Source: Methanohalophilus halophilus (GTDB lineage: Archaea; Halobacteriota; Methanosarcinia; Methanosarcinales; Methanosarcinaceae). Taken from it: 64,000 bases of DNA. Numbering within the stretch: the stretch's first letter is position 1; the number at the start of each line of letters is the position of its first letter. Below the pieces are notes generated by a model that did not search any database, was not told where the DNA came from, and worked only from the letters and a program-made list of their open reading frames with translations. The position numbers and the translations under genes are program-made. Where the stretch lies: contig NZ_CP017921.1 of NCBI RefSeq assembly GCF_001889405.1, forward strand, positions 1,130,057-1,194,056, given 5' to 3'. Shown here one piece after another: positions 15,881-64,000 of this stretch.

Positions 15881-17332
15881 ATGGTAGATTTGATGTTACT
15901 TGCACCTGAAATTATAGTTGCATTGACTGGATTGATCGTACTCACGATTGGTATTTTCATGGGTTCGTCATCCAAAAACGTACTTGGCTATATCGCAACA
16001 GCAGGCTGTCTGGCAGCCCTTGCAATGGTGATTGGCAACTTCAGTGCTTCTGCATTGATGTTTTCCGATACCCTGAGTGTGGACCCCCTTTCCCAGTTCT
16101 TTAAACTGGTGTTTTTGGTGGTTGCTCTTATTGTGTCCATTGCATCGATCAAGTACACTGAAGACAATAAAGACACGGAAATCTTCTATACCCTTGTGCT
16201 GTTTGCCACCTTCGGTATGATGTTTGTGGCATCTGCCAATGACCTCATGGTTCTTTTTGTGGCCTTTGAGCTGGCAAGTATAGCAACATATGCCCTTGCC
16301 GGGTTTGAGAAGAAGAACCCCCGGTCTGTCGAAGCATCAATGAAATACCTGCTTATGGGTGCTCTCTCAGCAGCCCTATTGCTTATGGGAATATCCTTTG
16401 TTTACGGTGCAACTGGTACCACATCCATTCCGGGCATCGCCCAGAATATGGATGTATTGGCCTCCAACGCAATCGGTTTACTTGCAATAGTACTCCTGAT
16501 AGCAGGTTTTGGTTTCAAGATTGCTCTTGTACCATTCCACATGTGGGCTCCGGATACCTACCAGGGTTCACCTTCTGTTGTATCGGCCCTGCTGGCCGCA
16601 GGCTCCAAGAAGATGGCATTTGTTGCCGCATTCAAGGTATTCATAGTAGCCCTTCTGGCAATCCAGGCCGACTGGAGGATGGCTTTTGCGGTACTGGCAG
16701 TAATTACCATGACATATGGTAATGTAGTGGCCCTGTCCCAGAGAAGTGTGAAACGTATGCTCGCTTACTCCTCTGTTGCACAGGCAGGCTACATTTCAAT
16801 GGCATTTGTTGTACTGACCCCGATGGCACTGACCGGAGGTATACTTTATACCCTGGCCCATGGTTTCATGAAAGCCGGTGCTTTCATAGCTACGGCCGCT
16901 GTAGTCTACATGGTTATAAAGGAAAAGAGGGATACGGAAATCCCTGATCACCTTGATAACTTCAAGGGATTGGGTAAGAAAATGCCAATAACGGCACTGT
17001 GTCTTACAGTATTTGTACTTGCACTTGCAGGAATTCCCCCAACAGCAGGTTACATGAGTAAGTTCATCCTTTTCTCCTCGACTATTCAGGCAGGAATGGT
17101 ATGGCTTGCTGTAATCGCAATCTTAAACAGTGCGGTTTCCCTGTATTACTATGCAAGGCTTGTACGATACATGTATGCAATGCCTCATGAAGGTGAAAAA
17201 CTAGCCGAGCCTGCTCCTTATGTAGCAGCTCTTCTGATTTCCCTTGTGGGTGTACTGGCTATTGGTTTATGGCCAGAGCCATTCGTTAAAATTGCAATGC
17301 AAGCAGCCAGCGTACTTGTCGGAGGTATCTAA
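15881..17332 (+). CDS. fpoN: F420H2 dehydrogenase subunit FpoN (NuoN-like)
   Basis: The 483-residue third antiporter-like subunit contains F-V-A-F-E-L-A-S-I-A-T-Y-A-L-A-G-F and P-F-H-M-W-A-P-D-T-Y-Q-G-S-P, which identify NuoN rather than NuoM/L. About 14 membrane helices. It follows fpoM by two bases; GGAGGTATC at its own 3' end is the ribosome site for fpoO. Confidence 0.97.
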   Translation: MVDLMLLAPEIIVALTGLIVLTIGIFMGSSSKNVLGYIATAGCLAALAMVIGNFSASALMFSDTLSVDPLSQFFKLVFLVVALIVSIASIKYTEDNKDTEIFYTLVLFATFGMMFVASANDLMVLFVAFELASIATYALAGFEKKNPRSVEASMKYLLMGALSAALLLMGISFVYGATGTTSIPGIAQNMDVLASNAIGLLAIVLLIAGFGFKIALVPFHMWAPDTYQGSPSVVSALLAAGSKKMAFVAAFKVFIVALLAIQADWRMAFAVLAVITMTYGNVVALSQRSVKRMLAYSSVAQAGYISMAFVVLTPMALTGGILYTLAHGFMKAGAFIATAAVVYMVIKEKRDTEIPDHLDNFKGLGKKMPITALCLTVFVLALAGIPPTAGYMSKFILFSSTIQAGMVWLAVIAILNSAVSLYYYARLVRYMYAMPHEGEKLAEPAPYVAALLISLVGVLAIGLWPEPFVKIAMQAASVLVGGI

Positions 17333-36494: not shown

Positions 36495-37193
36495 ATGCGA
36501 CTTATTAATATGGGGTTAAAGGGAGAACAGGTACGTCTGGACTTTTTTGGCTGTAACCTTAAATGTCCCTATTGTATTCATATCAGGCAACCCTTTGAGG
36601 AATACAGTATAGACGAAGTTGCTGATTTTGTCAGCAATTCAGCTGTAAAGAAGGTTTTTATCGGAGGAGCCGAACCCACTCTCCAGAAGGAGTTAATCCC
36701 ATTGATTGAGCGGTTGCATTCAATGGGTATGGAGATTATTCTAAAGTCGGATGGCATGAAACCCGAAGTACTGGAGCAATCTCTTCGGTTTGTAAAAGGG
36801 TTTGTTCTGGAATTGAAGGCACCACTTGAAGATACGGCTGCAATTGAGGAACTTACGGGGCTTTCCTCCAAAAGGGTAGAACAATATGTTGCAAACCTCA
36901 AAACATCGATAGATATTGCTAAAACCAGATGGTTGCGACTCTGGGTTCGTGTAATTCCCGGTTATGTTACTGAAGAATCCGTGAAGAGGATGTTGCCTGT
37001 TATGGAAGGAGCTTGTGAGGTACTTCTTTATCAATTCTTAAGCAATCCCGATTTTGATCTTCCTTTTGCAGGATACACCTCGCCTGTGCCTGCATGGGAG
37101 GATATGGAAAGCCTTGCCAATATTGTTGTAGAAAAGGTGCCCCGTGTAATAATTGTGGGAGAAAAAGGGCGTAAGATAATTGTTAAGGAGTAA
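36495..37193 (+). CDS. Radical SAM protein, activase-like
   Basis: From ATG 36495 (GGTGGG 8 bases before) the protein has 232 residues with C20-N-L-K-C24-P-Y-C27 and I-G-G-A-E-P-T-L, as in small radical SAM activating enzymes related to pyruvate formate-lyase activase. No extra cluster cysteines are evident. Partner protein unknown. The frame extends upstream to 36453 but that would place the start in the leader. Confidence 0.8.
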   Translation: MRLINMGLKGEQVRLDFFGCNLKCPYCIHIRQPFEEYSIDEVADFVSNSAVKKVFIGGAEPTLQKELIPLIERLHSMGMEIILKSDGMKPEVLEQSLRFVKGFVLELKAPLEDTAAIEELTGLSSKRVEQYVANLKTSIDIAKTRWLRLWVRVIPGYVTEESVKRMLPVMEGACEVLLYQFLSNPDFDLPFAGYTSPVPAWEDMESLANIVVEKVPRVIIVGEKGRKIIVKE

Positions 37194-37206: not shown

Positions 37207-37292
37207 GTAATGAGCAAGGTATCGTAAAAAAAGCAGATTGGTGGTATGGTGGTGGTACGATATGAAAGCTGCTTTTCAGCCTTGCTCATTAC
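37207..37292. ncRNA. Candidate structured RNA A
   Basis: A perfect 13-bp outer stem pairs 37207-37219 (GTAATGAGCAAGG) with 37280-37292. Inside, 37220-37226 can pair with 37256-37262 (TATCGTA/TACGATA, contiguous with the outer stem) and 37263-37268 with 37272-37278. Alternatively 37229-37236 pairs with 37269-37276 (AAAAGCAG/CTGCTTTT). The loop holds GGTATGGTGGTGGTAC (37243-37258), identical to a segment at 62813-62828. It lies in a 252-base gap between a radical SAM gene and the DUF5611 gene. No U-run follows, so it is not an ordinary terminator. Confidence 0.5.
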
Positions 37293-37445
37293 AAATTGCT
37301 CTATGATATGAAGGTATTTAAATATTTTTCTTATATGTGAATGATTATATCTTATTTATTTGTTTTTTATGCGGTTCAAATTCAGATAATTTTCTTAGAC
37401 CAAAACATTTATCCATGTCTGCCGGTATGTAATTAATCGATTGAC

Positions 37446-37757
37446 ATGCAGGAATACAAATTAAAACGTGGTCATTCCCCTGATATTGAACGTATCTATG
37501 AAGCGCTTGAGGAATGTTTCCCTTCCGATATATCAAGGCAAGGAGATAAATTAGTTACTTCATACGGTGTTATGAAGGAACTTTCTGTGTGGCTGAACGG
37601 CAAAAAACTTGCAGTTGACACGAATTCTGAAGCTGAAGGCGTCTCTGATGAGGTCATTCTTGATACCAACAAGAGGTTTCGCGATTTTCTCTATAAGGCT
37701 ACTGGTTACACTGCCAAGGAACGAGTTAAGAACGCCAAAAAGGCAGTTTCCAAATAA
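37446..37757 (+). CDS. DUF5611 family protein
   Basis: The 103-residue protein (MQEYKLKRGHSPDIERI) resembles DUF5611, a small family of methanogens with unknown function. It has a basic lysine-rich C-terminus. No Shine-Dalgarno is visible before the ATG; the TATA-like CATTTAT near 37407 would give a very short leader. The chorismate lyase-like gene follows after 11 bases, so they may form an operon. Confidence 0.65.
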   Translation: MQEYKLKRGHSPDIERIYEALEECFPSDISRQGDKLVTSYGVMKELSVWLNGKKLAVDTNSEAEGVSDEVILDTNKRFRDFLYKATGYTAKERVKNAKKAVSK

Positions 37758-62348: not shown

Positions 62349-62797
62349 TAAATACCCCCATTATAATGACTGCAAACAACCTCTGTTTTTAAATGTAAAT
62401 AACTTTTCCTGAAAGGCTCCTTTGCACTCTTTTTATTGATTCTACTAAAACAAAATGAAGAAATGAGTTTAGAAACATTGTTTTTTTGAGTAAAAGAAGT
62501 CATATTGCATGCTTATTGATAAAACACATTGCTGCGAAGTTGTTGAAACATATGAAATATAATATCCGGCAATTGCTGAATATTTAGTAGTAATACCTGA
62601 AGATTTGCCTGAACAATATAATCATAATCATATAGATATTATATAGGCAGGCATAGATGACCCAAAAACGCAATGCTGCTAATATGGCGAGTGTATTTTG
62701 ATAAATCTGCTTTTTTTGACTCCCCTATTATAGATTCGTACTTATGGTACTAATCAGCGGTTCTTAGGAATATATAACCATTCGTGATGTAGATTAA
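62349..62797. other. AT-rich gene-free interval
   Basis: Short open stretches around 62520-62650 are broken and show no recognisable protein. A TATA box AATATATAAC lies at 62769-62778; transcription from it would start near 62798, just before the structured element. Confidence 0.45.
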
Positions 62798-62950
62798 TGT
62801 GAAGTGGTAAGGGGTATGGTGGTGGTACCCGAACAGCTTCACTTGCCAGGGGAAGGAAGTGAGAGCGTTTGTTGTTGAAGGTGTTGACCTCCCGATGTCT
62901 ATCGGGACTGTTAATTCCTTCCCTTGAAGCAAGTGGGCTGTTCCGGTTAA
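62798..62950 (+). ncRNA. Candidate structured RNA B or leader of the secreted repeat protein
   Basis: Three collinear helices form one long stem: 62831-62837 with 62937-62943 (7 bp), 62840-62846 with 62929-62935 (7 bp), and 62847-62858 with 62915-62926 (12 bp, one G-U). Inside lie two adjoining hairpins, AGGT-GTTG-ACCT (62879-62890) and CCCGAT-GTCT-ATCGGG (62891-62906). Before the stem, GGGTA and TACCC (62812-62830) enclose TGGTGGTGG. The segment GGTATGGTGGTGGTAC (62813-62828) recurs at 37243-37258. It is either an independent RNA or part of a roughly 215-base leader of the next gene. Confidence 0.6.
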
Positions 62951-63013
62951 CTGCATCCCTTTTGACCGCTATGAAATGAAAATAAGATCAGATCTCAACG
63001 GAGGTAAAAAGGA

Positions 63014-64000
63014 ATGCAATGGAAGATAAGTGTGTTCTTGCTTGTAGCAATGTTATGCCTGGCCTTCACAGGCGCAGCTGCAGCAGAGGACAACGTTAAG
63101 TGCTGCTGGGAGAAACCCTGTGGCACAGAAGTAGAACAGTGTGATCAGGAGACTACATTTGTACTTAATGAACCTGACACTGAGAATGTAAATATAATCG
63201 TTAACGGCGGACAATGGTATTATGTAGATATGAATGATGACGGTTTAGTAAGTTCTGGTGATGTGAGACTTACAGGCTGGCATGATGAATATGGACCAAA
63301 CACCAAAGTTCTGCCCGGTGACGATGACAACCTGCTTGGTGCGGATGAATTGGATGAACAGGACATAATCACATACTGGGACATCAATGACAATGGAATG
63401 TATGACCTCTATGACCCAGCGTATGTAGATGTCGACAACGATGGTCTTGTTTCTGTGGGTGATATCAGGCTGACTGATGTTCCACCAGTTGATGTATATT
63501 CCCTTGAAAACGCCGATCTCGGTGAACTTGTCATGGAAGCCGGTTCTGTAAACGATGCTAACAACCAGAGATGGAGTGTTGTTACCAGCGCTAACGATGC
63601 AGGACAGCAGGACAAGGGCATGACTCTTGCACACATCGGTAGCGGCTATCTAGAAGACCTTGTCGGCTATGTAGATGTTGATGCTTCCGGTGACTGGACC
63701 TGTCCAGACAAACTTTATATCAACCAGCCAGGAGACTGCTGGTTCGATGAAACCGTAACAATCGGTGACATTAGACTCTACATCCCAGCATATGATGAGC
63801 ACAGCCCATCCTACAACCCAGATGAATGCATACCCGAATGTGGTACCAAGGTTGTACAGGGCGAGCATGACACAACATATGCATTGAAGGTCAACATTGG
63901 TGCAGATCTTGCAGCAGACCCAGATTATGCAATGAACCAGATCTATGTTGATATGGACGACAATGGAAAGGTATCATTCGGTGATATCAGACTTTCCAAC
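63014..64000 (+). CDS. Secreted protein with calcium-binding-like repeats, 3' end cut by the window
   Basis: ATG 63014, with GGAGGT eight bases before, opens a frame of 329 residues running off the window. A signal peptide (residues 1-24, ending A-A-A-A) is followed by a Cys-containing segment. Repeats of the type D-x-[DN]-x-D-G-x-V-S-x-G-D-[IV]-R-L begin near residues 71, 138 and 311, with diverged copies near 122 and 219. These resemble dockerin/EF-hand loops. Low-pI composition and export suggest a cell-surface protein; ligand and partner are unknown. Confidence 0.8.
   Translation, partial: MQWKISVFLLVAMLCLAFTGAAAAEDNVKCCWEKPCGTEVEQCDQETTFVLNEPDTENVNIIVNGGQWYYVDMNDDGLVSSGDVRLTGWHDEYGPNTKVLPGDDDNLLGADELDEQDIITYWDINDNGMYDLYDPAYVDVDNDGLVSVGDIRLTDVPPVDVYSLENADLGELVMEAGSVNDANNQRWSVVTSANDAGQQDKGMTLAHIGSGYLEDLVGYVDVDASGDWTCPDKLYINQPGDCWFDETVTIGDIRLYIPAYDEHSPSYNPDECIPECGTKVVQGEHDTTYALKVNIGADLAADPDYAMNQIYVDMDDNGKVSFGDIRLSN

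Follow-up and report, generated by a model that had tools for sequence, protein, structure and literature searches.

The 64,000-nucleotide stretch of Methanohalophilus halophilus DNA analysed here (the window) carries the same 16-base segment, GGTATGGTGGTGGTAC, at 37243-37258 and at 62813-62828 of the plus strand, which raises the question of what connects the two places. A sequence-only reading had set each copy in a non-coding structured element, and had proposed two RNAs with a common loop and a third partner. Both copies are indeed exact, both lie in non-coding structured DNA, and each is followed after a few bases by GAA and AGCT, as described. No further copy had been noticed in the window, and none was found at up to 2 mismatches; the only other site at up to 3 mismatches is 16416-16431 (minus strand), with 3. 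In the shuffle control the mean was 0.32 matches per shuffle, and 3 was reached in 0 of 100 shuffles. The 2.02-Mb genome holds three exact copies, the third of which (C1:17567) lies outside the window near an integrase gene. Exact copies were found in 7 of the 8 genomes of the genus, and in 0 of 53 other genomes of the family and order.

To the following answer we give a probability of about 0.65: 37207-37292 would encode a trans-acting small RNA (sRNA) for the translation of surface proteins, and 62803-62970 would be a leader with which it can pair. If this is right, the recurrence of the 16-mer in two structured elements is explained, one being a regulator and the other its likely target.

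The first element sits between a radical-SAM gene (36495-37193) and a DUF5611 gene (37446-37757). Its signals argue strongly for an intergenic small RNA gene on the minus strand, with the following parts.

37207-37292, minus strand: structured part of the sRNA gene (R2 covariance match, family covariation).
37292-37280 with 37219-37207, minus strand: outer stem, GTAATGAGCAAGG with CCTTGCTCATTAC (family covariation).
37315-37322, minus strand: box A promoter element TTTAAATA, 22 nt ahead of the outer stem, a distance conserved across genera.
37251-37264, minus strand: conserved core CAUAUCGUACCACC (alignment A3), consisting of an anti-AUG (CAU), a 5-nt spacer and an anti-Shine-Dalgarno (ACCACC).
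37243-37258, minus strand: the 16-mer in RNA sense, GUACCACCACCAUACC, the predicted seed.
37229-37276, minus strand: inner stem, AAAAGCAG (37276-37269) with CTGCTTTT (37236-37229).
37220-37262, minus strand: possible pseudoknot of the Methanohalophilus copies, UAUCGUA (37262-37256) with UACGAUA (37226-37220).

The R2 covariance model matches 37287-37213 on the minus strand with 66.9 bits (E 2.6e-13). The outer stem exposes CAUAUCGUACCACC-ACCAUACC, including CCACC/CAUACC bases beyond the core. The pseudoknot pairing is absent from the members of other genera.

The minus strand is taken as the RNA strand on the evidence of box A, T-runs and G-U pairs. A box A (at least 7 of 8 consensus bases, 20-30 nt off the outer stem) was found on the minus strand in 30 of 50 family members and on the plus strand in 2, and runs of at least four T follow the 3' arm in 38 of the 50 on the minus strand and in 17 on the plus strand; since these 50 members are related to one another, the figures are counts and not independent events. 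Distinct outer arms, read on the minus strand, show 15 G-U against 5 A-C pairs (p=0.04), a wobble test that is weak alone. Each element is adjoined on the minus strand by TTTATATA or TTTAAATA, mostly 22-29 nt before the outer stem, and the box A would give a free-standing intergenic gene its own promoter, as judged from sequence. The RNA of the first element thus bears CCACCACC, not GGTGGTGG, which corrects the strand assumed in the sequence-only reading. That both elements belong to the RNA level still stands, but they are not two same-strand RNAs with a common loop and a third partner, since the box A and T-run counts make the first a minus-strand gene. The suggested pairing of GGUGGU with a CACC-type sequence is supported in another arrangement: the CACC is on the first element's own RNA, to which the second element is complementary. 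The two window copies are therefore antisense to each other. A plus-strand RNA with a two-layer G-quadruplex in its loop was considered and rejected, because promoter, terminator and wobble evidence favour the other strand, and the GG runs are lost in several family members.

A search of the complete genome and of its relatives with a covariance model, as had been recommended, yielded a family. The first model, built from copies like that at 37243, matched diverged relatives in several genera. With the second, at E≤0.01, members were found in 59 of 186 Methanosarcinales genomes, at 1-9 copies each. All 59 are Methanosarcinaceae, from 7 genera (Methanohalophilus, Methanococcoides, Methanolobus, Methanomethylovorans and three more), and include all the genomes searched from Methanohalophilus, Methanococcoides and Methanomethylovorans, as well as most of those from Methanolobus. 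The window genome has five paralogues. Two genomic homes are conserved: one, shared by several genera, lies between the DhnA-type aldolase gene and that for GlyRS, the other in the radical-SAM/DUF5611 gene gap, again across genera, where the window copy lies. Neither Methanosarcina nor several other genera gave a credible copy; the weak Methanosarcina matches were coding stretches or lacked the core, and the region upstream of GlyRS did not contain the core in the four Methanosarcina genomes examined, nor in further genera that gave no matches.

Family members have a constant core within an outer stem of varying sequence (GAGCAAGG/CCTTGCTC, GGGCAGGAT/ATCCTGCCC, GAATAAAGTT/AACTTTATTC and others). 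In 39 members, 95.9% of the outer-helix cells are paired, 8 of the 9 pairs have double changes, and double-changed cells number 57 versus 17.3 in shuffles, while slid versions of the helix are 27-53% paired. Further in, an inner stem of varying sequence, recognised by eye, bounds the loop YCAUAUCGUACCACC. This covariation of the outer stem points to a conserved RNA secondary structure with an exposed pairing loop, and not to the simple GGT-repeat matches without structure against which the sequence-only reading had cautioned. No Rfam family was matched at its gathering threshold, only chance matches to animal microRNA models having appeared, and the alignment has no conserved pair of C (RUGAUGA) and D (CUGA) boxes as in C/D box sRNAs, which Rfam did not match either.

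Several features of individual copies were noted in passing. In a Methanococcoides genome (G067, L072:1900-4540), 363-bp units with the sRNA gene and its promoter stand in tandem, and a transposase gene sets one of these apart; every unit further carries TTACCACCAC on the plus strand, complementary to the element's plus strand. About 15 nt upstream of the box A of the GlyRS-locus sRNA, a palindrome, ATCATCATNATGATGAT, is found in Methanococcoides and Methanohalophilus (L072, L081, L063, L111, L173) and is a possible operator. In several genera a hairpin-like motif, CGATAATGTTAAATCCAATGGGAATATCGATG, is conserved within the GlyRS leader itself (L071, L073, L081, L083). A strongly diverged member with the stem AAGTAAGACTTCTC/GAGAAGTCTTACTT (L001:1385-1460) adjoins the copy near the integrase gene.

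The second element belongs to the region upstream of a predicted surface-protein gene.

62770-62779, plus strand: TATA-like promoter ATATATAACC of the leader, its placement presumed from the sequence.
62803-62970, plus strand: structured 5' leader of the surface-protein gene (fold and nine-sequence alignment, two genera).
62803-62814 with 62957-62970, plus strand: closing helix of the leader, AGTGGTAAGGGG with CCCTTTTGACCGCT.
62828-62837 with 62937-62946, plus strand: long inner stem of the leader, CCCGAACAGC with GCTGTTCCGG.
62812-62830, plus strand: hairpin GGGTA-TGGTGGTGG-TACCC, a candidate pairing site that contains 62813-62828 (fold, duplex ranking).
63014-64000, plus strand: predicted surface protein with a signal-like N terminus, 767 aa in the genome, running off the window.

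The protein has repeats of the DxDxDGxVSxGDIRL type (calcium-loop-like) and no Pfam or NCBIfam match; the Shine-Dalgarno of its gene, GGAGGT, is at 63000-63005. Within the window, R2 at E≤10 matches only 37213-37287, and the 62813 copy is a target-like complement of the sRNA, not a paralogue. Methanohalophilus, and in part Methanococcoides, conserve the leader together with its own closing helix. All five leaders from Methanohalophilus, even the diverged leader of genome G006, have twelve extra bases that complete GGGTA-TGGTGGTGG-TACCC, and the hairpin loop is the complement of CCACCACCA, which is present in all five sRNAs of the window genome. Perfect complementarity to the leader extends over 16 nt in the window sRNA and over 18 nt in the paralogue at C1:17539. 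When duplexes were ranked among 359 gene starts, drawn from sampled genome stretches, the leader came 2nd, 1st, 1st, 1st and 3rd for the five sRNAs, ranks that are circular for the two bearing the 16-mer because the leader had been picked through it. Exact GGTATGGTGGTGG sites number four in the genome: two sRNA genes, the window leader and one ORF start. The window leader is a plausible candidate target of the sRNA.

The alternative that survives best accepts the sRNA family as real and lets it act on other messages: the 62813 copy would be cis-acting, serving only the fold of its own leader, and the 16-base match would be a coincidence of GGT repeats. We consider this unlikely, though it deserves to be taken seriously. 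In its favour, a closing helix proper to the leader is conserved, and AGTGGTA-GGGTATGGTG with it, in two genera; the GGT sequence is of low complexity, and some genomes have the sRNA without the 63014 gene. However, none of the five Methanohalophilus leaders lacks the 12 bases that extend the match to its full length; the genome has few exact 13-mers, and the leader's high rank extends to the three sRNAs without the 16-mer. Part of the leader does seem to be kept for its own fold, since its GGTATGGTG is also conserved in Methanococcoides, whose sRNAs are without CAUACC. No homologue of the 63014 gene was detected in G004 and G005, which have the window-type sRNA, so that other targets must exist. 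As an observation on 62803-63013 itself, this long structure, conserved in two genera and closed by a helix close to the Shine-Dalgarno, may have a cis-acting role of its own.

The sequence GGUGGU-ACGAU-AUG, to which the core CAUAUCGUACCACC is complementary, resembles a Shine-Dalgarno followed, after five bases, by a start codon. Four start regions of this kind stand in tandem in a leader of the genome G006, that of a related species (L062:1940-2110, G006:C3:431339-431509): GGTGGCACGATATGAAAGC, GGTGGTACGATATGAATGC, GGTGGTACGGTATGAAAGC and GGTGGTGCGATATGAAAGC. Repeats 1-3 open four-codon mini-ORFs (MKAA*, MNAA* and MKAA*), and repeat 4 is the start region of a surface protein that has a PKD domain and a PEF-CTERM sorting signal. 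Repeat 2 is a perfect complement, over 23-24 nt, of the two GlyRS-locus sRNAs of the same genome, and repeats 1, 3 and 4 match its radical-SAM-locus sRNA perfectly over 14, 16 and 13 nt, the complementarity reaching past the core into paralogue-specific bases. About 7 kb away, a surface paralogue with DUF11-type repeats has the start GGTGGTACGGTATG. This tandem-start leader appears to be the best independent support for targeting. Complementarity extended over ribosome-binding regions is thus found in G006 (13-24 nt, perfect), whereas the site of the window genome, of 16-18 nt, is in the leader, away from the start codon itself. Close homologues of the G006 surface proteins are lacking in the rest of the family, which leaves a single genome as the source of the best target pair.

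No universal mRNA complementary to the whole core turned up when relatives were searched; the cases found were the G006 surface genes, an isolated Methanolobus start region and, in G010, a GGAGGT variant preceding a desulfoferrodoxin-like gene. The Methanolobus region (G011, L297:1001-1060), with an exact GGTGGTACGATATG and a TATA-like box upstream, opens a frame of only 15 codons close to a transposase gene, and may be the relic of a target gene. A small membrane-protein ORF that follows the peptidyl-prolyl isomerase gene (L269, L270, L273) has AGGTGGTATGGTGGTGGAATGG at its start, an exact complement of the window sRNA in three species but altered in G004, G005 and G007; this second candidate target of the window genome (C1:931261) was set aside on account of these changes. 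Over all gene starts, complementarity is modestly enriched, and not at all for one sRNA.

That the core is far better conserved than any single target, and that no universal mRNA with its full complement was found, would also fit a structural or protein-binding role within a non-coding RNA (an RNA chaperone or ribosome-associated RNA, for example), with antisense pairing as a secondary matter. We hold this to be improbable: the core fits an anti-AUG, a spacer and an anti-Shine-Dalgarno, and in G006 the complementarity extends into paralogue-specific bases.

Still less probable is an element acting as DNA, either a protein-binding inverted repeat or a mobile repeat upstream of plus-strand promoters. 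A TATA box does stand at a fixed spacing, and Methanococcoides has tandem duplications, with one copy elsewhere beside an integrase gene; yet the spacing suits a promoter reading the other strand, and the stems covary with G-U pairs while two positions are syntenic across genera. A mobile element as such, to which the duplications (L072) and the integrase neighbour (L001) had pointed, was rejected on the same covariation of stems and synteny of two loci. A viral origin was also discarded, as a 17-mer complementary to the core was matched in viral contigs only without the outer stem. Finally, the idea of short conserved peptides (plus-strand MVVV or minus-strand MSKAEKQLSYRTTT) can be dismissed almost entirely: the window copy has short open frames on both strands, including the ATG GTG GTG GTA frame pointed out earlier (37246, MVVVRYESCFSALLITNCSMI*), but in relatives stops and indels break the plus-strand frame, on the sRNA strand no conserved frame crosses the core, other members have the core in differing frames or in none, and length changes are not multiples of three.

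A trans-acting sRNA remains our preferred reading. The covarying outer helix would hold the RNA and present CAUAUCGUACCACC as the antisense of a translation initiation region, and the sRNA would pair in trans with ribosome-binding regions or leaders, chiefly those of surface proteins, altering their translation. In the window genome, the leader hairpin loop UGGUGGUGG and its flanks would form a perfect duplex with the sRNA loop that competes with the closing helix of the leader; because of this competition, activation and repression are both possible. More tentatively, and with some doubt on our side, the loop may be an invariant start-site antisense, next to which paralogues diverge for different surface mRNAs. 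In some targets, tandem start copies, each matching another sRNA paralogue, would then open decoy mini-ORFs (MKAA*, MNAA*), and the whole would form a combinatorial RNA switch for the methanogen cell surface. If the preferred reading is right, RNA control is linked to the surface proteins of methylotrophic and halophilic methanogens. With two conserved genomic homes and explicit pairing predictions, the family can be put to the test at once.

To our knowledge, archaeal sRNAs with known targets are few. In bacteria, RsaE of Staphylococcus has a C-rich loop that pairs with the G-rich Shine-Dalgarno regions of several mRNAs. The present family resembles it in its C-rich anti-Shine-Dalgarno loop, the sequences being unrelated, and we know of no RsaE-like bacterial sRNA featuring a fixed core of anti-AUG, 5-nt spacer and anti-Shine-Dalgarno. 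Neither Rfam nor the literature searched contained a family with such a core and with tandem targets matched to paralogues, and the present one is to that extent uncatalogued: the functional class is already known, the sequence family itself is new to catalogues. In Methanolobus psychrophilus, 195 intergenic sRNAs were mapped, nine of them conserved and cold-induced (PMC5378194). Some of the mapped sRNAs may belong to the present family, which the genus carries, although the nine cold-induced ones exceed the 1-2 family copies found here per Methanolobus genome.

By analogy of function, the closest known RNAs are sRNA154 and sRNA41 of Methanosarcina mazei; neither emerged as a homologue in the family searches, and their descriptions set them apart from the present family. 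sRNA154 is an intergenic trans-acting RNA with stem-loops, one of which masks the ribosome-binding site of the glnA2 mRNA; it is described as conserved in Methanosarcina, with nitrogen genes as targets (PMC5867862). Both it and the present family are intergenic stem-loop sRNAs of Methanosarcinaceae that act in trans (as proposed here for ours), but our family has no credible match in Methanosarcina and surface proteins as its proposed targets. For sRNA41, repression of translation by masking of ribosome-binding sites has been proposed, with the ACDS operon as target (PMC5867862); organism and targets differ, and the proposed masking of ribosome-binding sites is what the two have in common.
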